In this document: positions 1 through 8,987 of the stretch, in pieces
How the letters are laid out: each line of letters begins with the position of its first letter
Numbering within the stretch: position 1 is the first letter of the stretch
Assembly (NCBI GenBank): GCA_030041415.1
Contig: JASHNX010000050.1
Location: 1-39,419, forward strand
Reading direction: 5' to 3'
DNA length: 39,419 nucleotides
Source: Candidatus Sulfotelmatobacter sp.
Lineage (GTDB): Bacteria; Acidobacteriota; Terriglobia; Terriglobales; Acidobacteriaceae
Made by a program: the position numbers and the translations under genes
The notes under the pieces: model-generated
Database searches by the model: none
What the model was told of the DNA's origin: nothing
Seen by the model: the letters and a program-made list of their open reading frames with translations, nothing else

Positions 1-244
1 AAATGCTGATGCGCGCCCGTTTGTCGCCGTTCCTGCCGACCGAAACCGCGGTCACCTTACCGTCAGCAGGCGAGACCACCGCACCCTCGGCCTCAGGAAT
101 AACACGCTCGGGATCGCGAAAGAACCACAAGAAAAATGCAGCCAGCAACACGGGAGTTACGGCCCAGGCAGGGTTGGCAAACCATCCGACGAGCAACCCC
201 GCCGCCATCATTGCCAGCGCGTAATAGTAGCCGTCGCGAACCAT
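1..244 (-). CDS. psd: Phosphatidylserine decarboxylase, N-terminal part (runs off window)
   Basis: Only the first 81 codons are in the window; the gene continues past base 1. The start is the ATG at 244-242. The protein opens with two hydrophobic stretches (about residues 7-20 and 27-39), then [20 protein letters not shown] (residues 38-57) and DGKVTAV. The FRDPER and VVSPADGKV motifs are typical of the short, membrane-anchored phosphatidylserine decarboxylases that convert phosphatidylserine to phosphatidylethanolamine. The GS self-cleavage site that makes the pyruvoyl group lies outside the window. No other minus-strand gene is close upstream, and a TATAAT box lies just before the start, so it probably has its own promoter with a very short leader. 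Family assignment is firm from the motifs; activity cannot be judged from this fragment. Confidence 0.85.
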
Positions 245-255
245 GGGATTCCATA

Positions 256-261
256 ATTATA
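256..261 (-). promoter_or_regulatory. Candidate -10 box for psd
   Basis: On the minus strand this reads TATAAT, a perfect sigma-70 -10 hexamer, 11 bases before the psd ATG at 244. I see no good -35 at 16-18 bases; a GTTG-containing stretch lies near the expected place. Transcription would begin only a few bases before the start codon, so the messenger would be nearly leaderless. Confidence 0.35.
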
Positions 262-367
262 GAGCACACGTTGGCAGACAACGCTCCTGTCCCCAAGAAT
301 TGGCGTGGGGCAAGTTGGCGTAAGTGCAAATAAAGAAAGGCAGTGGTGCGCCCCGTGGAAAAGATGG

Positions 368-392
368 AAAAATGCGGCAGCGGCGATGCCGC
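368..392 (-). terminator. Candidate intrinsic terminator after the DUF465 gene
   Basis: Six-base arms GCGGCA (374-379) and TGCCGC (387-392) enclose a 7-base loop. On the minus strand the stem is followed at once by ATTTTT. It lies 22 bases after the stop codon at 415. The T run is short, so this is a moderate call. Confidence 0.45.
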
Positions 393-414
393 TTTTCGAC
401 TGGGCGGCGGTGTT

Positions 415-645
415 TTAGGCTACGTGTGTGCCGAACTGTTGCCGGTACTGACGTTCGATCGATTGCATCTGATCTTTGAGCCGTAGTTTGAGCTTCTTTA
501 AGCGAATCTCTTCCAGCTTTTCGTCTTCGCTCAGATAGCGTTTCTGGGTGAGAGAATCAAGACGAGTGGAATACTGCAGGTGTTCCTGGGCCAGTCTGCG
601 AAGTTCTTCGTGATTGGCCAGGAGAGCGTCATTAGGAGTCACCAT
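415..645 (-). CDS. DUF465 / YdcH-like small coiled-coil protein
   Basis: A 76-residue charged, helical protein. It contains the pattern of the DUF465 (YdcH) family: HEELRRLAQEH near the N-terminus, then a LSEDEKLEEIRLKKLKLRLK segment leading into a basic coiled coil. The function of the family is not established. The start is the ATG at 645, because GGAGG lies 8 bases before it; an in-frame TTG 15 bases upstream lacks such a site. It is followed by a hairpin with a T run. It is monocistronic as far as can be seen, lying between psd and rimI on the same strand. Confidence 0.75.
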   Translation of the reverse strand: MVTPNDALLANHEELRRLAQEHLQYSTRLDSLTQKRYLSEDEKLEEIRLKKLKLRLKDQMQSIERQYRQQFGTHVA

Positions 646-758
646 CCAGTGGACCTCCAACCGGGATTTATACGCTCAAGCTAGCACAGCCCCAAAAATG
701 GTTCAATGCCCAAATCTGGTGCATTCAGGCAGGAGATAAATACAACAAAACGCTTGAC

Positions 759-1250
759 TTAGCAAACTTTAAGTCGATACAGGATTGCATCTTCAGGGGG
801 ATCCTGATAATAATTTTGCCGCAAACCCGCGATTTCGAATCCAGACTTCTCGTATAACCTCCGGGCCGCCTGATTCGACTCCCGGACCTCCAGAAATATG
901 TTTGCAACATAAGTCTCTCGCGAATAAGCAAAGAGTTGAGAGAGAAGCAGGGCGCCAACGCCTTTACGCCGCGATTCGACGCTGACCACGAGATTCTCCA
1001 GTTCGCACTCGCCGTTGGTTCTGCGCGCGATGAGGAAGCCGAGAAGTTTGGGCTGCAGCTGTTTTCCTTCGTTCGCCAGCCGGTCCCGGTCGTCCTCAGC
1101 GATCCAGGCACATTGCTCTGATAGGGAGTCAGGAATAGATAGAAACAACTGCTCATAGTGCTGTCTGCTCCAGTGTGCGGCGGATGTGGCCTCCCGTTCG
1201 AGAGTTATGATGGCGGAAGCGTCGGCGGCATTGGCTCGTCTGACACGCAC
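759..1250 (-). CDS. rimI: Ribosomal-protein-alanine N-acetyltransferase (RimI-like GNAT)
   Basis: A 163-residue GNAT acetyltransferase. Visible features are the N-terminal strand VRVRRANAADASAI, the acetyl-CoA binding segment ESRRKGVGALLL (R-x-x-G-x-G type), and the C-terminal NQAARRLYEKSGF motif that is almost diagnostic of RimI-type enzymes. RimI acetylates the N-terminus of ribosomal protein S18 in Escherichia coli; the substrate here is inferred. The chosen start is a GTG one base after the tsaB stop, with GAGAAG about ten bases upstream inside the end of tsaB. tsaB-rimI is a common pair in bacteria. The length is normal for the family. I found no ATG in a better place. Confidence 0.85.
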   Translation of the reverse strand: MRVRRANAADASAIITLEREATSAAHWSRQHYEQLFLSIPDSLSEQCAWIAEDDRDRLANEGKQLQPKLLGFLIARRTNGECELENLVVSVESRRKGVGALLLSQLFAYSRETYVANIFLEVRESNQAARRLYEKSGFEIAGLRQNYYQDPPEDAILYRLKVC

Positions 1251-1251
1251 G

Positions 1252-1956
1252 CTAAGGTTTCTTCTCGAGAATTTCCGCGTCAGTGCGCCGGATATAATTC
1301 GCCTCCAACTGGTCGGGCGTCGCGGTAACGCCGGATCTGATTTTGCTCCACCCCAGGCGCGCAACATCGGCGGCAGAAATCGATTCGATTGTTGTAAGCC
1401 GCAGTCCCGCAGACTTGGCCGCTTGGGCGATCGCAGCATCTGGAGTCGCGACGTTCCATCCCACTGCCCGCGCAAGAAAATCAGAGCGTTTTAGAAGCTT
1501 CTCGTCATTGAGTGGGGCAGATGACATCGCATCGGTCGTTGAAATCTCATATTCCCCTACATAAACATCTTCGCGGCCAGCATCCAGACCAACCATAACT
1601 TTGCCTTTAACGCCGCTTGCGACCGCGCAGACTTCGAGCATCGAGACGGCGGCGATTGGTTTTGCCAAAATCTCCGCAAGCGCCTTTACCGCGACGAGGC
1701 CGACGCGGAGTCCAGTGAACGATCCCGGCCCAGAAACCACGGCAAAAGCGCCAATTGCCTCTTTGGTGTAGCCATTGCTCGAAATCAGCGTGGAAATCTG
1801 TGGAATCAGTTGCGCGGAGAAAGTGCCCCCAACCAGCGGCATGATCTCGATAATCTCGAATTCTTCGGGGATGTCACTATCTTTGACTCTCTCTTCGACA
1901 CGCGCGAGAGCGATGCTGCCTTGCTTTCCGGAGGTGTCGATGGCGAGAAGAAGCAT
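1252..1956 (-). CDS. tsaB: tRNA threonylcarbamoyladenosine biosynthesis protein TsaB
   Basis: A 234-residue protein of the ASKHA fold. It begins MLLLAIDTSG and carries SGPGSFTGLRVG at residues 75-86, the signature of TsaB. TsaB works with TsaD and TsaE to place the threonylcarbamoyl group on A37 of ANN-decoding tRNAs. The length matches the family. rimI follows after one base, implying co-transcription and translational coupling. The ATG at 1956 lacks a strong ribosome binding site, but the conserved first strand begins there, so the start is well fixed. tsaD and tsaE are not in the window. Confidence 0.92.
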   Translation of the reverse strand: MLLLAIDTSGKQGSIALARVEERVKDSDIPEEFEIIEIMPLVGGTFSAQLIPQISTLISSNGYTKEAIGAFAVVSGPGSFTGLRVGLVAVKALAEILAKPIAAVSMLEVCAVASGVKGKVMVGLDAGREDVYVGEYEISTTDAMSSAPLNDEKLLKRSDFLARAVGWNVATPDAAIAQAAKSAGLRLTTIESISAADVARLGWSKIRSGVTATPDQLEANYIRRTDAEILEKKP

Positions 1957-2020
1957 GGAGGCATTCTAATTGGTCACGAATCGTTGCTGGGGAGGTTTGG
2001 AAGTTTCAGCAAGGTGGCAA

Positions 2021-2065
2021 AAAGCAGGTTCCTCGCCCGGCCTCCGTCCGTGTTCGGAATGACAT
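2021..2065. repeat. Intergenic REP-like element between mce and tsaB
   Basis: The minus strand reads ATGTCATTCCGAAC, then a GC-rich middle, then GCGAGGAACCTGCTT. From memory this resembles a dispersed bacterial repeat of the pattern GTCATTCCGAGC...GAGGAATCTGCTT. It has the same layout as the translated element at 37277-37370 (GTCATCCTGAGC...GAAGGATCT). It sits just after the mce stop codon. Family membership is by pattern only; no genome-wide count is available. Confidence 0.45.
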
Positions 2066-2072
2066 CTCTTGA

Positions 2073-2471
2073 TTATTTATCCTGCACAAGCTCCAGGAGC
2101 ACCCCGCCGGTGCTGGAGGGATGGACAAAAACATATCGATGCCCCCCAGCACCTGTCTTGATTTCATCCGACACGAGGCGCACGCCGTCTTTTTTCAGCC
2201 GATCGACGGCCGCAGATAGATTCGGCACCCTCAAGCAAACGTGATGCAAGCCTTCCCCACGTTTGGCGATGAATCTTGCGATCGTGGAATCCTCCGAAGT
2301 CGCTTCCAGCAATTCCAGGCGGGCTTCGCCGACGGGAATCATCACAACACGCACACGCTCATGGTCGACAACTTCTTCCGGCGAAATGCTGAGCCCGAGT
2401 TTTTCGTAGATCGACTTCGCCGCAGTAAGCGACTTTACCGCGACGCCGAGATGATCAATGCTAAATTCCAT
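2073..2471 (-). CDS. mce: Methylmalonyl-CoA epimerase
   Basis: A 132-residue protein of the glyoxalase / vicinal-oxygen-chelate fold, with two beta-alpha-beta-beta-beta modules. It starts MEFSIDHLGVAVKSL; the likely metal ligands are H7, E53 (in RLELLE), H76 or H77 (in GEGLHHVCLRV) and E127 (in GVLLELVQ). The enzyme interconverts (R)- and (S)-methylmalonyl-CoA in propionate and odd-chain or branched-chain catabolism. It lies 26 bases after meaB on the same strand, a typical partner, and the two probably share a messenger. The methylmalonyl-CoA mutase itself is not in the window. Length and motifs are normal. Confidence 0.92.
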   Translation of the reverse strand: MEFSIDHLGVAVKSLTAAKSIYEKLGLSISPEEVVDHERVRVVMIPVGEARLELLEATSEDSTIARFIAKRGEGLHHVCLRVPNLSAAVDRLKKDGVRLVSDEIKTGAGGHRYVFVHPSSTGGVLLELVQDK

Positions 2472-2497
2472 GCGTCGTCACTCTTGTCATTCCTGCT

Positions 2498-3568
2498 TTA
2501 TCTTCTTCCAGCCTTCCCTGCAATCTCCTCCACCAGCGTATACGGATCGCGTTTGTGCTCGGCAACCTCTGCCGCCAGCTTCTCCAGATTTCCATCGCTC
2601 AGCTGGGCGCGAGCTTTTTCGAGCATAGTATCGCGCAGCATTTCGACCAGACGCGCCCGCCAGTTTTCTGCACTTTTGCGCAGCGCCAGATTCTGCTTCT
2701 TCAAGTATGACTCATAATCGGCAATGGCTCCCCCCAGTTCGTCGATCCCTTTGCCTTCGCTAGCAATCGCCTTCACAATCGGAGGAACCCATCCATCGCC
2801 CCGCGTAGCCAGCGATTGCAGCGCGCGGATTTCTTTTTCAACGTGCTCGGCGCCGTCGCGGTCGCTTTTGTTGATCACAAAAATGTCAGCGATCTCCATG
2901 ATGCCGGCTTTGATGGTTTGCACATCATCGCCCATGCCCGGCACCAGAATCACGATCGTAACATCGGCGAGGCGAACGATATCGACCTCATCCTGGCCGA
3001 CGCCGACGGTTTCGATCATGATGAGGTCGCGCCCGGAAGCGTCGAGCGCAGTCGCAACGTCTGCCGTGGTGCGCGCGAGCCCGCCCAGCGACCCGCGCGT
3101 CGCCATGCTGCGAATGTAAATGCCGGGATCAGAAAAGTGTTCCTGCATGCGGATGCGGTCGCCGAGAATCGCGCCGCCAGTGTACGGGCTGGTCGGGTCG
3201 ACGGCGATGATCCCGATCGTGTAGTTGTCGTCGTTTACCGGTGCCCCATTCAAGCCACGTTCTTTGTGGCTTGAATGGGAATCCGTGAAATCGGTTGCCC
3301 CATCCTTATCTCGCGCACTTTGCGAGACAGGGTGGGGACGTTGGGTCTTCCGATAGAAGCGCGCCAGTTGATCAACCAGCGTGCTCTTCCCCGCTCCGGG
3401 CGCGCCCGTGAGACCGATAACGCGGGCGTGGCCCGTGTACGGAAATAGAGCCTTAAGCAGATTGGACCATCCGGGCGCACGATTCTCGACTGTCGAGATC
3501 GCACGCGAAAGCGCGCGCACGTCGCCGGAGCGCAGGGAAAAGATCAAATTCGTGTAGCTGTCGTCCAA
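2498..3568 (-). CDS. meaB: Methylmalonyl-CoA mutase-associated GTPase MeaB (ArgK family) with in-frame insertion
   Basis: A G3E-type P-loop GTPase that guards and repairs B12-dependent methylmalonyl-CoA mutase. From the start used here: P-loop GAPGAGKST at residues 55-63, then IIAVDPTSP, GGAILGDRIRM, the ETVGVGQDEVD segment and the NKSD guanine-specificity motif. Between helix 1 (about residue 76) and the next strand (about 113) there are some 34 extra residues encoded by a double-hairpin repeat (3245-3337); without them the protein would have the usual 320 or so residues. The reading frame is open back to 3748, with a TTG there and an ATG at 3658, but those upstream residues look non-coding and have no ribosome site. 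I chose the TTG at 3568 because the family homology starts there and the TTG is kept in the decayed copy near 5829. The start is uncertain. Confidence 0.88.
   Translation of the reverse strand: MDDSYTNLIFSLRSGDVRALSRAISTVENRAPGWSNLLKALFPYTGHARVIGLTGAPGAGKSTLVDQLARFYRKTQRPHPVSQSARDKDGATDFTDSHSSHKERGLNGAPVNDDNYTIGIIAVDPTSPYTGGAILGDRIRMQEHFSDPGIYIRSMATRGSLGGLARTTADVATALDASGRDLIMIETVGVGQDEVDIVRLADVTIVILVPGMGDDVQTIKAGIMEIADIFVINKSDRDGAEHVEKEIRALQSLATRGDGWVPPIVKAIASEGKGIDELGGAIADYESYLKKQNLALRKSAENWRARLVEMLRDTMLEKARAQLSDGNLEKLAAEVAEHKRDPYTLVEEIAGKAGRR
3245..3337. repeat. Two back-to-back REP-like hairpins inside meaB
   Basis: Hairpin 1 has perfect 14-base arms at 3245-3258 and 3266-3279 around a 7-base loop. 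Hairpin 2 has imperfect 16-17-base arms at 3298-3314 and 3322-3337 around the loop gcacttt. The pair is read through in frame and adds about 34 residues to MeaB in a loop after the P-loop helix. The layout resembles a bacterial interspersed mosaic (REP/BIME-type) element. Confidence 0.75.
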
Positions 3569-3757
3569 ACGTTCAGTGTAAAACAGCCGGGTGAGAAAGA
3601 CACCTGCTGGAGAACAAGGATGAGTGTAATTCGGGATGTCGCACTCGTTTTCGAACATCGGCTGCCGGGTGAGCCGATACGACCTCCTCCAGATGTTGAA
3701 GCGCAGCAAGCGAGAAACATTGATTGCACTCCCAGTATGAAGGTCCAAACCTAAATG

Positions 3758-4195
3758 TTAGCGATGCACGAGCACGGGAATCTTTGAGTGTGTAAGGACC
3801 TTGATGGTTTCGCTACCGAGGACCATTGCCGAGACGCCGCGGCGTCCGTGGGAGGCCATGGTAATAAGGTCGCAACTCTTAGCCTTGGCAAGGTCGATAA
3901 TGGCCAGGTAAGGATGTTCATGTTCGGAGAGAACTGTCTCACAAGGAACTCCCGCGGCTTCGGCGGCGTTGCTGATGTCGCGAAGGAGTTTGGTCCTGGA
4001 TTGCGCCATTTGCTGGTTGTATTCGGCGCGGGTGTCTTCGACAGCCTCGGTATTGAGGGTAAAGACATGAAACGGGACCTTGACAGTGAGCACGGTAATC
4101 CTAGCGCCGATCGCCTTAGCCAGGCTGATGCCATGTCGAACCGCTTTGTCCGCGAGTTCCGATCCATCGGTTGCGATCAAGATGTTCTTGTACAT
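3758..4195 (-). CDS. Universal stress protein (UspA family)
   Basis: A 145-residue single Usp domain. The N-terminus MYKNILIATDGSELADKAV is the usual first strand with the ATP-contacting Asp, and the C-terminal GRRGVSAMVLGSET fits the G-2X-G-9X-G-(S/T) ATP-binding motif, so it is probably an ATP-binding Usp. AAGGAG lies 7 bases before the ATG. It lies 358 bases downstream of a CBS-pair gene on the same strand, a frequent association in stress-response clusters, and just upstream of meaB. The biological role of individual Usp proteins is usually unknown; a stress or energy-limitation response is inferred. Confidence 0.9.
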   Translation of the reverse strand: MYKNILIATDGSELADKAVRHGISLAKAIGARITVLTVKVPFHVFTLNTEAVEDTRAEYNQQMAQSRTKLLRDISNAAEAAGVPCETVLSEHEHPYLAIIDLAKAKSCDLITMASHGRRGVSAMVLGSETIKVLTHSKIPVLVHR

Positions 4196-4553
4196 GGCAA
4201 TTCTCCTTTTGGCGTTCCGTCGGATGCGCCATTAAATCCATCAAGTCACGCGACGGGCTGGGGGCACTTGACTGTGGATCGACGGCGACGAAGCTTCTGC
4301 TGGCTCCCTATCGAATATCGAAGTGGATCCGCAGCTTGAGATTCTTCCTCAATATCTAGGATCACCTCTCTTAGTCGTTTGTCAGTGTGCGAGGTCACGC
4401 AACGATGTGATCGAAGTGCAAGCGCCACACCTTGTAATCGCTGCGCATTAGGCGGCCAACCTGCGCCTTTAATTGACGGGTATAGCTACATGGGCCGGAG
4501 AGTCCGGACACTCCGGCGAAATGTCGAGCAGGGGAGAAATTCAAAGCGCGATG
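4196..4553. other. Gene-free stretch with an imperfect palindrome
   Basis: No convincing gene is seen in these 358 bases. The only clear structure is a 22-base near-palindrome at 4495-4516 (ccggag-a-gtccggac-a-ctccgg), in which ten of eleven base pairs match. It lies about 40 bases after the stop of the CBS-pair gene but has no T run on either strand. It could be a factor-independent stop for that gene or an operator for the downstream usp gene. Confidence 0.35.
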
Positions 4554-5006
4554 CTAGCCGGGGTACGAACCTACAACATAACCCTCCAGTTCGTGAATGA
4601 CTTCCTCCTGCTCCGAGATGATCCATTTCACAACATCGCCCAGCGAGACCACTCCCACGACAGCGTCGTTTTCCATGACCGGAAGGTGCCGAAAGCGATG
4701 CTCGGTCATGATCGCCATGCATTCGTCTACTGGCCTCCGTGGGTCGACGGAAACGATGGTGGTGGTCATGATTTCGCGAACTAGAATGTCCTTCGAAACA
4801 TGTCCCTGCAGCACTACTTTACGGGCATAGTCGCGCTCCGAGATTATCCCGATGAGTTGGTTCCCGGACATGACCAGTAAAGCGCCTACTCCGTATTCAG
4901 CCATTTTTTTAATGGCTTCATATACGGTTTGATCCGGAGATATGGAACGAATTCGATTCTCGCGCTTGTTTTGCAAGACCCTTGCAATCGTATGGGTTAG
5001 TTTCAT
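4554..5006 (-). CDS. CBS-domain pair protein
   Basis: A 150-residue protein made of two CBS domains (about residues 8-65 and 73-132) and a short tail. Each has the typical ending: GNQLIGIISERDYARKV in the first and ENDAVVGVVSLGDVVKWII in the second. Stand-alone CBS pairs bind adenosine nucleotides and are thought to sense energy state; the ligand is not known here. A strong AAGGGGG lies 6 bases before the ATG. A perfect inverted repeat lies 25-55 bases upstream. With the Usp gene downstream it suggests a small stress or energy-sensing group. Confidence 0.88.
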   Translation of the reverse strand: MKLTHTIARVLQNKRENRIRSISPDQTVYEAIKKMAEYGVGALLVMSGNQLIGIISERDYARKVVLQGHVSKDILVREIMTTTIVSVDPRRPVDECMAIMTEHRFRHLPVMENDAVVGVVSLGDVVKWIISEQEEVIHELEGYVVGSYPG

Positions 5007-5031
5007 AGAACCCCCTTACGAGACCTGGCTG

Positions 5032-5061
5032 ATTGCCGGATGGTAGCATTTTGCCGGCAAT
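5032..5061. promoter_or_regulatory. Inverted repeat upstream of the CBS gene, possible operator
   Basis: Eight-base perfect arms attgccgg (5032-5039) and ccggcaat (5054-5061) are separated by 14 bases. The right arm is itself embedded in a ten-base palindrome ttgccggcaa (5051-5060). It lies between the CBS gene (start 5006, minus) and the small plus-strand gene at 5163, where a shared operator could act. No regulator gene is adjacent. Confidence 0.35.
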
Positions 5062-5162
5062 GAGGCGGTGATCTGGCGCACCCAATGGGTGTGATTGAAA
5101 TCACTGAACGTAGGAAGCGAGCCGTAGTAACTTTGCGCCAGTCGTTGTGCAAGGGATGGGGA

Positions 5163-5384
5163 ATGGCGAGTACCTCATCGATGATCGCAATAGGTAAGCT
5201 GGCCATGGCTGGGGAACAAGCTGGATTCAAGATCGAGCAAATGATCGATATGCTCAACTCTGGGCTTCCTGTCGATGCACTTCTTCAGCTGATTGCTCGG
5301 GGGCTGGAAGAATCGGCATCCGCTTTGCCTTGCGTGGGTTCGTTTCGAACGAAACTGTCCGCTAATCGCTCCACGGAGGCGTAG
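5163..5384 (+). CDS. Small hypothetical protein (73 aa)
   Basis: I do not recognise the family with certainty. From the ATG at 5163 the protein has a regular amphipathic helical core: KLAMAGEQAGFKIEQMIDML followed by SGLPVDALLQLIARGLE. The ATG has AAGGGA about 8 bases upstream. It is followed after 3 bases by another small gene on the same strand with a good ribosome site, so the two look like an operon. These are the only plus-strand genes in the first 9 kb. The C-terminal 25 residues look less structured. It is likely to be expressed, but no function can be given. Confidence 0.5.
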   Translation: MASTSSMIAIGKLAMAGEQAGFKIEQMIDMLNSGLPVDALLQLIARGLEESASALPCVGSFRTKLSANRSTEA

Positions 5385-5387
5385 CTA

Positions 5388-5591
5388 ATGCCATCCTCCG
5401 ATCGCTATCTTCACTTCGAAAATATCGACATGGGCGAACCCGCCATCTCGGCACAATGCAGCCGTTGTGAGCGCGAGTTCGCCGCAGCCCCAAGAGCTAA
5501 TGAAAGAGTTGACGACGTGATCTTGCGCCTTCGAGCCGAGTTCAATGCTCACGAATGTCAGCTGAAGACCTTCGCTGAGAAGTCGGCGTGA
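5388..5591 (+). CDS. Small putative zinc-binding protein (67 aa)
   Basis: A 67-residue protein with a CSRC pair near residue 24 and a HEC motif (residues 55-57) after a helix VDDVILRLRAEFNA. The C-x2-C...H-x-C spacing suggests a single small zinc site, although this has not been shown. GGAGG lies about 8 bases before the ATG, and the preceding small gene ends three bases upstream, so the two are probably translated from one messenger. I recall similar short proteins in acidobacteria but cannot name the family. Confidence 0.6.
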   Translation: MPSSDRYLHFENIDMGEPAISAQCSRCEREFAAAPRANERVDDVILRLRAEFNAHECQLKTFAEKSA

Positions 5592-5657
5592 GGATTCTCT
5601 TTTGTGAACCGTCAATTGTTGTAATCAGGGCGATTACACTCACGTAGATTTTCGAAC

Positions 5658-5871
5658 CTACTCCTTCAGCAACTGCCTTGCAATCACCAGCCGTTGAATC
5701 TCGCTGGTGCCTTCGCCGATTCGTGCACAGCTTCACGTCGCGGTAAAACTTTTCGGCGGGATCGCCCGCGAAAGAGCGCGGTTCATCGCCGGAGCGAAGG
5801 GAGGAAATCAAATTTGCGTGGCTGTCCAAGCGTTTTCAGTGTAAAGCAGGAGGGAAAGAAAGGCACTTTCA
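5658..5871 (-). pseudogene. Chimeric scar: meaB 5' fragment joined to acyl-CoA dehydrogenase 3' fragment
   Basis: Bases 5658-5762 are a near-identical copy of 6437-6540, the last 34 codons and stop of the acyl-CoA dehydrogenase: I count two substitutions and one inserted base, which breaks the frame. Bases 5763 to about 5871 match 3500-3608, the first codons of meaB plus a little upstream, at roughly 80 percent. On the minus strand the order is meaB start, junction near 5762, then the dehydrogenase end. The reading frame across the junction (NLISSLRSGD... then [12 protein letters not shown]) is interrupted and not functional. This is what remains after a tandem duplication of a dehydrogenase-meaB block followed by an internal deletion. 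Confidence 0.8.
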
Positions 5872-5908
5872 GAAAGGCCATTGCGACTGCAGAGGGGTGT
5901 GTAGGGAA

Positions 5909-6433
5909 CTATCCAAGCCGACGCCGAATCGTTGTCGCGCCCATTTGAGCAGACCAGAAAACGAGAGCACCGATGGTCACGATCAGCAACGCGCCCAAGC
6001 TGCCGTCATAGGTTGCCATGATGAATGTATAGGGCGGGAGTAACGACATGGCAAACACGAGCATCCCCCCTCGAACCCCGTCAGCACCCGCGAATCCGGC
6101 TCCCGAAAATGTCGCTGCAAGCGTCATGAACGGTCCGCCAGTGAGCCATACGCCAACCAGCATTGCAGCGCCAGGCCATTTGAAATTTCGTCTCGTTGTG
6201 ACCCTGCGTCCGGCGAGATAGGCAGCAAGCAATGTTGATGGCATCAGAATGGTGGTCAGTCGTACCTGCGGCGAGCCGAAATCGCGACCCTCAGATATGT
6301 GAACCGTGACGTCAGGCAGCCAGAAGCTAAGGCCGCCCAGCAGTGCAAGCCAGAGCGCCGCCCTCCAGTTCTTCATACCTTTGGGCCCGCAGGAGGCCGG
6401 GCCCTCCCGTCGCCCTCCTCCCTCGTCTGCCAT
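5909..6433 (-). CDS. Small integral membrane protein, unknown function
   Basis: A 174-residue protein with about four hydrophobic segments (near residues 25-42, 62-75, 88-110 and 123-160) after a charged, glycine-rich N-terminus. I do not recognise a family. The ATG at 6433 lies 3 bases after the acyl-CoA dehydrogenase stop, and the AAGGAG formed by its last codons is 6 bases before this ATG, so the two are translationally coupled. A second ATG at 6376 would begin directly at the first membrane segment. A GC-rich hairpin (arms 6383-6389 and 6398-6404) lies between these two starts. It is placed between the dehydrogenase and the meaB-derived scar. Confidence 0.6.
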   Translation of the reverse strand: MADEGGGRREGPASCGPKGMKNWRAALWLALLGGLSFWLPDVTVHISEGRDFGSPQVRLTTILMPSTLLAAYLAGRRVTTRRNFKWPGAAMLVGVWLTGGPFMTLAATFSGAGFAGADGVRGGMLVFAMSLLPPYTFIMATYDGSLGALLIVTIGALVFWSAQMGATTIRRRLG

Positions 6434-6436
6434 TGG

Positions 6437-7579
6437 CTACTCCTTCAGCAACTGCCTTGCAATCACCAGCCGTTGAATCTCGCTGGTGCCTTCGCCGATC
6501 GTGCACAGCTTCACGTCGCGATAAAACTTTTCAGCGGGATAGTCTTTGATGAATCCATATCCGCCGTGAATTTGCACGCCTTCGTTGGCGCACTTGACGG
6601 CAACTTCGCTGGCGTATAGTTTCGCCATGGAAGATTCGAGCGTCGTTTTCAAACCTGCATCTTTCATCGAAGCCGCGCGCATGGTCAGCAGCCTCGCGGC
6701 GTCGATTTCGGTAGCCATGTCGGCCAGCTTCCACTGGATGGCTTGAAACTCTCCAATGGCTTTGCCGAATTGCTTGCGCTCTCGCGAATAGTTCAGAGCA
6801 GCTTCGTAGGCGCCTTGCGCCATGCCGAGAGAGAGTGCCGCAATTGAAATGCGCCCGCCATCGAGCACACGCATGGCGTCGATGAATCCGTCGCCTTCTT
6901 TGCCCAGAAGATTTTCGGCGGGAATTGCGCAGTCTTCAAAAATCAATTCTGCGGTATCACTGGCGCGCAGTCCGAGCTTGTTTTCTTTTTTGCCGGGACG
7001 AAATCCTTTTGTATCTTTGTCGACGATGAACGCGGAAAGGCCGTGGGTATTGGCTGCACGGTCTGTAACCGCAATTACCACAAGCGCGTCGGCGTAATGG
7101 CCGTTTGTGCAGAAAGTTTTTGTTCCGTTCAGAATCCAGGTGTTGCCGCGGCGCTTTGCGGTCATGCGAGCGCTGCCTGCATCCGAACCCGAGGAGGGTT
7201 CGGTCAATCCCCACGCGCCGATGAATTCGCCGGTAGCGAGCTTGCTGACATACTTCTTTTTTTGTTGTTCCGTGCCGGAAAGAAAAATGTGATTCGAGCA
7301 AAGCGAAGTGTGTGCAGCAACAATGATACCGACCGACCCATCGACGCGAGACAGTTCTTCGATCGCGAGAACATAGTCCACATAGCCCATGCCCGCGCCG
7401 CCATACTCGGCGGGAAAAACTGTTCCCAGCAGTCCAAGCTTGCCGAGTTCCTTGACTGTCACCAGAGGAAACTCACCAGCTTCATCCCACTTCATGACAT
7501 TGGGAGCAATCTCGCGCTCGGCAAATTCACGCACGCTTTTCTTCAGCTGTTGTTGCTCGTCGCTCAGTTGGAAATCCAA
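6437..7579 (-). CDS. Acyl-CoA dehydrogenase (short/medium-chain type)
   Basis: A 380-residue FAD-dependent acyl-CoA dehydrogenase that makes the first, alpha-beta, oxidation of an acyl-CoA and passes electrons to ETF. It carries the FAD-contacting [14 protein letters not shown] and the [17 protein letters not shown] helix. The C-terminal [19 protein letters not shown] is followed by GEGTSEIQR, whose Glu (about residue 363) matches the catalytic base. The start is taken as the TTG at 7579 (giving [12 protein letters not shown]) because GGAGGG lies just before it; a GTG at 7600 is also in frame. The substrate is unknown; with meaB and mce nearby a branched-chain or short-chain acyl-CoA is plausible. 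Its last 34 codons are duplicated at 5658-5762. Confidence 0.93.
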
Positions 7580-7799
7580 GAACCCTCCATCCGGCCCCAC
7601 CGATTCTGATTAGAACATAGCGATTACGGAGCGGAAAGTTACGTTGGGAAGGAAACGCGGAGGTCGATGAAACCCGCATCATTACCGGGTTTCGCGGCTA
7701 GAATACGCACGCGCTGACCGACCGTATGGTTTGCGAGGGAAGGATTCCTGAGTCTATCGAGAGCCAGCATCAGCGGCAGGGCAAATGAGGCAGAGAAAA

Positions 7800-8987
7800 C
7801 TAATGAATAACTTCCTGTGAGGAAAGGAACCGCTGAAATACCTCGTTCGAGAGCAACCGGCCACGTGAGGTCAGGCGAACAGAATTTTTCTGCTGCTGGA
7901 TCAGGCCACCGTTGACGAGTTCCCCGATTGTTTGATGAGCCGCGGCGATGGCGTCATCGCCAAACGTCTCCGCGAGCTTCTCCAGGTCAATACCCCGATT
8001 CAGCCGCAGACCGAGAAAAAAGCTTTCTTCCAGGCTTTCGGACCTTGAAACTGCCGTGCGGTTCAGCCCTTCCCCAGCGATGTATTTTTCCAGCGAATCC
8101 GGGGTAGAGAAGCGAATGGCGTCGATGCCGGCACCGGAAGACAACAGCATCGAGTGCGCGTCTACGCCGAACCCCAAATAGGGCTGCCGCGCCCAGTATT
8201 TCAAATTGTGAAGCGATTCGAAGCCCTTGCGGGCAAAGTTCGAAATCTCATACTGTGCAATTCCCGCCGATTCCAACTGCTCACAGGCTTGAAGATAAAA
8301 ATCGGCGACGGCTTCATCATCTGGAACGAAGTGAGCGTGGTAGCGCGTGCCACCGGCGAGCAGCTCGCGCCCCAGCCGCGAATCTTCATCGACCTCCAGC
8401 ATGTAGATGCTTGCATGTAGAGTCCCGGTGGCGATTAGTTCGTTCAGGGAAAAACGCCAGCTTTCCGGCGTCTGGTGCGGCAGTCCGGCGATGAGATCGA
8501 TATTGATGTTCGCAATACCGACCGAACGCAGCTGCTCTAGGTCACGCAGCACCGTCATGCGTTTGTGCCGCCGCCCAACCGCTGCTGCTTCCTCATCGAC
8601 AAACGATTGCACGCCCAGGCTCACTCTGTTGACTCCGCACTTCAGAAGGCAGTCGATCGATGCTTCCATCAACGTTCCCGGGGCGCATTCGACGGTGATT
8701 TCTGCCTCAGGAATTACGTCGAATTCGTCTCGTACAGCGGCAAAGATGCGCTCCAGTTGGGCCGGCGCCAAAATCGTGGGCGTTCCGCCACCCAGATAGA
8801 TGGAGTCGACTTCAGTTTCCATCTTGCCGCCCATCGTTTCGGCCGTTCGGCGAACGCTTGCAATATCCTCCCAAATCCGATTCACATAGCTCTCAAACTT
8901 TCCCGGCGAAAATACGTCTGACGCGAAGTTGCAATAGCTGCACTTCGTGCGGCAGAACGGGATGGAGATATATATGCCGAGAGCCAC
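7800..8987 (-). CDS. hemW: Heme chaperone HemW (radical SAM)
   Basis: A 395-residue radical-SAM protein. The iron-sulfur motif is C12-x3-C16-x2-C19 followed by Asn-Phe. True coproporphyrinogen dehydrogenase HemN has a further Cys two residues on; here the place is Phe21, as in HemW. Also seen are YLGGGTPT, ECAPGTL, NRVSLGVQSF and NIDLIAGLPHQT. HemW binds heme and is thought to deliver it to respiratory enzymes. The length fits HemW and not the longer HemN. It diverges from the ABC exporter gene at 9103. Confidence 0.92.
   Translation of the reverse strand: MALGIYISIPFCRTKCSYCNFASDVFSPGKFESYVNRIWEDIASVRRTAETMGGKMETEVDSIYLGGGTPTILAPAQLERIFAAVRDEFDVIPEAEITVECAPGTLMEASIDCLLKCGVNRVSLGVQSFVDEEAAAVGRRHKRMTVLRDLEQLRSVGIANINIDLIAGLPHQTPESWRFSLNELIATGTLHASIYMLEVDEDSRLGRELLAGGTRYHAHFVPDDEAVADFYLQACEQLESAGIAQYEISNFARKGFESLHNLKYWARQPYLGFGVDAHSMLLSSGAGIDAIRFSTPDSLEKYIAGEGLNRTAVSRSESLEESFFLGLRLNRGIDLEKLAETFGDDAIAAAHQTIGELVNGGLIQQQKNSVRLTSRGRLLSNEVFQRFLSSQEVIH

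Follow-up and report, generated by a model that had tools for sequence, protein, structure and literature searches.

Homology-facilitated illegitimate recombination (HFIR) is homologous at one end and illegitimate at the other, and partial duplications of the target on integration have been documented experimentally (PMC3240628). The process has been reported in Streptococcus pneumoniae, Acinetobacter baylyi and Pseudomonas stutzeri, and rarely in E. coli conjugation (PMC3240628). In the E. coli study, circularised molecules were also described to integrate by a single crossover, which produced duplications of 109-950 bp (PMC3240628). Furthermore, an HFIR-like mechanism has been proposed for the type VI immunity-gene arrays of Vibrio cholerae, which contain displaced remnants (PMC5361080). 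A literature search found nothing joining Sulfotelmatobacter with horizontal gene transfer, and a search on meaB, acyl-CoA dehydrogenase (ACAD), epimerase and Acidobacteria found nothing covering meaB.

The locus described here lies in a window of 39,419 nucleotides (the whole stretch of DNA analysed) from Candidatus Sulfotelmatobacter sp. It contains a 214-base pseudogene patch at positions 5658-5871 on the minus strand, in which the start of meaB is joined to the end of an ACAD gene. The patch itself is very probably without function. With moderate confidence, we regard it as the far edge of a short horizontal insertion of the HFIR type, whereby an incoming ACAD-membrane gene-meaB segment was joined into the tail of the resident ACAD. 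The likeness to HFIR is that foreign DNA has been added which borders on a homologous gene (ACAD) at one end and on an illegitimate joint with a very short overlap at the other; the difference is that the window holds the historical product only (PMC3240628). As in the Vibrio cholerae arrays, a new module sits upstream of left-behind resident sequence and the downstream genes are kept; unlike in those arrays, metabolic genes border the interval, the gene that serves as anchor is full length, and one stub derives from the incoming neighbour gene (PMC5361080). The locus also shares with circularised single-crossover integration a direct repeat of part of the target around the insert (109-950 bp there, 104 bp here), but no plasmid or circular intermediate is evident in this case (PMC3240628).

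The first-pass annotation, made from the letters alone, had described the patch as a copy of the ACAD 3' end abutting a copy of the meaB 5' end, and alignment of each half bore this out. Positions 5658-5762 match 6437-6540 at 97.1% identity over 105 aligned columns (E 9e-46), in two blocks of 63 nt at 100% and 42 nt at 95%. The 2 mismatches and one 1-base gap of this alignment reproduce the two substitutions and one inserted base noted earlier. The meaB half matches 3494-3603 at 77% over 113 columns (E 1.4e-17). Elsewhere in the window the 214-nt patch has no match better than E 0.08, and both halves are therefore far above chance. The halves meet at a common ATC on the minus strand (plus-strand GAT, 5760-5762), and this 3-base overlap provides the few bases of microhomology expected of the illegitimate end in HFIR. 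On the minus strand the gene order is ACAD, membrane-type gene, meaB head, ACAD tail, CBS, Usp and meaB (Table 1).

The 'membrane' label for 5909-6433 is a reading of its hydrophobic sequence, and a start at 6376 is possible for this gene. Neither this gene nor the small ORFs 5085-5384 and 5388-5591 had a Pfam match, and positions 1252-1956 are presumably tsaB. A Pfam scan of the nine proteins of 2073-8987 found no recombinase family (three had no match at all), and the flanking repeat is a 104-nt gene tail; a site-specific or transposon insertion is not indicated by either.

The membrane gene is also found directly before an intact meaB in a sister species, "Candidatus Sulfotelmatobacter sp. 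JOPF380" (hereafter G008). The G008 contig C275 begins inside the membrane gene at window position 6272 and contig C8 stops at window position 8233, with ACAD in the gap between them; this assembly gap separates the hemN contig of G008 from JASICF010000459.1. Window positions 5757-6272 are 92% identical to G008. For the flanks, pieces of 1-3603 match G008 at 76-80% and the main alignments on the other side at 79-83%; identity between the resident meaB and its G008 counterpart is about 80%. Within the insert, the membrane gene matches at 337/364 bases (92.6%), the spacer at 26/30, positions 5787-5878 in leader and head at 92/92, and positions 5763-5786 beside the joint at 19/24. The match is thus uneven, with an excess of differences beside the joint (p 3e-4) and a perfect stretch that has a probability of 8e-4 at the membrane gene's rate, both values having been computed after the data were seen. 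The excess beside the joint could reflect an error-prone joint.

At four-fold sites, 6 of 72 differ from G008 in the membrane gene, compared with 547 of 1212 across seven genes of the flanks (p 5e-11), which corresponds to a divergence of 8% against a background of 45%. The resident meaB differs from G008 at 58 of 155 four-fold sites and is therefore near background, so the fragment is not a copy of the resident meaB. For the origin of the insert, the four-fold test carries far more weight than raw identity: across 72 bins of 250 nt, the background has a mean of 0.806 (sd 0.064, maximum 0.914), and the insert bins (0.934 and 0.924) are the highest only narrowly, with two flanking bins also reaching 91%. 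A FastTree phylogeny of meaB heads and leaders, built from a short alignment of at most 32 relatives and the two window copies, paired the fragment with G008 (FastTree local support 0.93) and placed the resident meaB as sister to this pair (0.97). In the tree alignment, spacer included, the fragment agrees with G008 at 97/113 positions and with the resident meaB at 80/110, and the resident meaB agrees with G008 at 82/110. The four-fold test and the meaB-head tree together indicate a foreign origin of the inserted DNA, as is characteristic of HFIR. On these comparisons the membrane gene and meaB head (about 5763-6272, the limit of the G008 contig) are assigned to a G008-like lineage. The meaB fragment is truncated in the window and whole in G008, which suggests that the transfer ran from the G008-like lineage to the present genome.

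These results bear directly on the origin first proposed for the patch, namely that the genome's own ACAD-meaB block was tandemly duplicated, an inner piece was lost, and the CBS, Usp and membrane genes came later. Such a duplication would account for the meaB head being followed by the ACAD tail, which is the order of a tandem-duplication joint, and it is consistent with the ancestral ACAD-meaB neighbourhood and with tails that are same-lineage copies. However, a resident source is seen for the ACAD half and not for the meaB half: the meaB head groups with G008 rather than with the resident meaB, and it adjoins the same membrane gene as in G008, at 8% four-fold divergence against the 45% background. 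The 92/92 match to G008, the four-fold test and the tree rule out the genome's own meaB as the source of the head, and duplication of the resident block is very unlikely as an account of the locus. The gene conversion that had been invoked for the unequal divergence of the two halves is not needed, since they differ in parentage.

Table 1. Positions, strands and supporting evidence for features of the ACAD-meaB locus (window coordinates).
Feature	Position	Strand	Evidence
Radical SAM protein with HemN C-terminal domain	7800-8987		Pfam
Intact ACAD, source or partner of the tail copy	6437..7579	-	Pfam PF00441/PF02771/PF02770; tail match
Membrane-type gene, probably gained together with the meaB head from a G008-like lineage	5909..6433	-	No Pfam family; 337/364 nt as in G008; four-fold sites 6/72
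Spacer and meaB-type leader with TGCTTTACACTGA, G008-like	5830..5908	-	Alignment with G008, leader alignment, pattern search
Head of foreign (G008-like) meaB, presumed TTG start, truncated at the joint	5763..5829	-	G008 alignment (42 nt from 5829 downward exact), tree
Illegitimate joint, 3-nt microhomology (minus-strand ATC) common to meaB and ACAD	5760..5762	-	Alignments
ACAD 3' end copy including stop codon; one frameshifting inserted base near 5721	5658..5762	-	Alignments
CBS-domain gene in interval	4554..5006	-	PF00571
Universal stress protein (Usp) gene in interval	3758..4195	-	PF00582
Intact resident meaB, from which the fragment does not derive	2498..3568	-	PF03308; 80% to G008 meaB; four-fold 58/155 differ
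Glyoxalase-family protein	2073-2471		Pfam

The ACAD tail had been called a near-identical duplicate, and comparison across species upheld this. The tail copies differ at 2 of 104 bases, both at third-codon positions and both synonymous (Ala, Tyr), and by one inserted base. In 221 genome pairs with enough data (window included), the smallest tail difference was 7. Given that each of these pairs has at least 7 differences, the tail is a true near-identical copy, with both tails from one lineage or very close ones. The pair of synonymous changes is what alleles that had both once been functional might show, with two events being too few for proof. At the first differing site, the T of the intact gene occurs in 0 of 28 relatives, most of which have the C of the fragment. 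The same counts indicate that the direct ACAD partner was not as distant as G008, and direct pairing with the ACAD of a species at G008's distance, with no further steps, is ruled out. The favoured account therefore has to assume an intermediate carrier that was close, a crossover at the extreme end of ACAD, or subsequent gene conversion. The insert lies directly behind ACAD, where the G008 contigs leave their gap, and the tails are too alike for mapping a crossover with a distant donor.

In the HFIR reading that we favour, a close relative would have carried an ACAD-membrane gene-meaB allele of G008 descent (this allele is presumed, as is the linkage of ACAD and membrane gene in G008 itself). 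Its DNA would have entered a cell with the arrangement ACAD-(CBS, Usp)-meaB and paired homologously in ACAD, and the other end, broken inside meaB, would have been fused to the ACAD tail of the resident through the 3-base microhomology. Behind the inserted piece, the resident tail and the resident CBS-Usp-meaB would then follow. The outcome would be a membrane gene gained, an ACAD tail duplicated and a meaB stub left, with the resident ACAD and meaB both whole.

Two near-identical tails and the joint would be explained directly if a tandem duplication had occurred in the donor or after introgression. A unit of roughly 780 bp (ACAD tail, membrane gene, meaB head) of the G008-descent locus would have been duplicated, and homologous recombination in the second tail would have brought in CBS-Usp-meaB. 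The spacing between the ACAD-tail copies (778-779) agrees with such a unit, but at least two further steps are needed. Moreover, no second membrane-gene copy occurs among the matches listed for the query 5388-6436 in 45 genus genomes, and besides the own genome only G021 has two strong ACAD-tail places, without the membrane gene. This duplication is accordingly given a minor though appreciable chance. Alternatively, a piece comprising ACAD tail, membrane gene and meaB head may have come from a close relative in circularised form and entered the ACAD tail through a single crossover, with partial duplication of the target. This variant is equally workable as the HFIR route and, with one genome, indistinguishable from it, and the 104 bp duplicated here can be set beside the 109-950 bp target duplications obtained in E. 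coli conjugation (PMC3240628). It requires both circularisation and a crossover within about 100 bp, however, and is considered improbable.

The contig is an assembly without reads, and a tail repeat of this kind could confuse an assembler. A chimeric or mis-ordered metagenome contig would be in keeping with an assembly of 350 contigs and with the 63-nt exact tail repeat, which could mislead an assembler. On the other hand, the 3-nt overlap at the joint is not bridgeable without a real or chimeric read, and the membrane gene is present as a single copy in the assembly. The membrane gene is 92.6% rather than 100% identical to G008, so it is not G008 contamination. An artefact of assembly is therefore held to be very improbable.

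The wider ACAD-meaB neighbourhood was examined in 61 genomes (own included), 58 of which matched the region, and 40 stretches were fetched. Of these 40, 26 (25 genus members and G059, of another family) have both ACAD and meaB on a single contig; the remaining 14 are contig ends, contain just one of the pair, or were fetched for other reasons. Most genus members in which the positions of both genes could be established thus have them as neighbours. The pair usually has hemN upstream and, mostly, glyoxalase and tsaB-like genes downstream. There are exceptions: in G035 the two genes are about 28 kb apart on one contig in opposite orientation, in G029 they occupy separate contigs, with more than 20 kb on what should be the facing sides, and in G006, an apparent exception, ACAD is at a contig end and meaB inside another contig. 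The proposal that ACAD and meaB were once adjacent is thus supported by the survey, which points to an ancestral neighbourhood with exceptions.

The interval between the two genes is highly variable in length (52 to 6,378 bases in the 26 relatives). At E 1e-5, the window's interval has no sequence in common with the intervals of the 26 relatives, whereas among one another some relatives' intervals do have common sequence. The other fetched ACAD-meaB intervals gave no CBS, Usp or membrane-gene match at E 1e-5. Across the 40 fetched stretches, the lone CBS match outside the window is on a separate G024 contig and the lone membrane-gene match is in G008; relatives of the CBS gene are present elsewhere in many genomes, own included. 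Homologues of the membrane gene occur in 8 of 45 genus genomes (own, G008 and six others at 32-62% identity), and a contig scan for further carriers of the membrane gene returned the G008 contig alone. As to the native 3' flank of ACAD, by eye no relative's post-stop flank resembles either window flank, and the stretch behind the intact ACAD stop (6362-6438) matches the own genome only, among 45. It had been suggested that the genes now between ACAD and meaB arrived later. For CBS and Usp, their absence from the other fetched intervals fits such a lineage-specific arrival; for the membrane-type gene the suggestion needs amending, as it arrived with the meaB head and not separately.

Possible parallels were found within the genus. 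In G021, the ACAD end is present at two places (contigs C151 and C170) with 98.5% identity over 205 nt, and the two are unlike beyond the stop. On C151 (L030, 1-1092), the end is part of an almost complete ACAD located behind hemN; an open stretch of about 250 codons comes next, and after it sequence like the interval start in G011, G004, G010 and G002. On C170 (L051, 3726-3929), the last 200 or so ACAD bases, cut by the contig end, stand before a different interval and meaB. The G021 flank has a single occurrence in the G021 genome. Either the architecture is that of the window (ACAD, cargo, ACAD tail, interval, meaB) and assembly broke it at the repeat, or the bin combines two strains whose ACAD genes are near-identical and whose intervals differ. 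Such a mixture explains the observation as well as a real duplication does, and it would be an allele pair of the sort required by the favoured model. Judged from G021, the genus does contain close alleles or copies with different intervals.

Similar scars were sought in the 26 other ACAD-meaB intervals. In the middle of the G031 interval (L074), a decayed stretch of 47 nt resembles the end of the ACAD of G031 itself (77%, E 2e-4, a weak match), ends in the same AAAGATTAG and may be an earlier scar of this type. In the G011 interval, a repeat of 30 nt adjoins meaB, but it looks like a local repeat. The ACAD-meaB interval of the genus might be a recombinase-free hotspot that has repeatedly gained cargo by homology-anchored illegitimate joining, each gain leaving an ACAD-tail stub before the older interval. 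This reading gains weight from the two contexts of the ACAD end in G021 and has G021 and G031 as candidates for further cases, and it is put forward tentatively, as a possibility on the unlikely side.

Several other features of the region were observed. A conserved leader, roughly CTGCTTTACACTGATCGTTTG and ending at TTG, precedes meaB in most aligned relatives; it is present in the window at 3566-3585 and 5827-5848, the only places where the pattern occurs in the own genome, and may be a meaB promoter or a leaderless start. The resident meaB has an apparent in-frame insertion at 3234-3345 with hairpin-like repeats (inverted arms 3234-3258 and 3266-3290) and with two partial relatives elsewhere in the own genome, which is perhaps a palindromic element inside a coding gene. 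A dispersed repeat of 156 nt (5487-5642) ends 16 bases from the ACAD tail copy; a copy on G000:C5 (3776-3930) matches it at 98%, and the final 37 nt are found again on C136 at 92%.

The class of event considered here is ordinary, and its footprint is unusually readable. In uncultured soil bacteria, the patch offers a readable natural footprint of a short DNA transfer that involved lineages with about 80% identity. It also illustrates that an apparent scar of paralogous duplication can be xenologous, which alters what is inferred on gene order and gene age.
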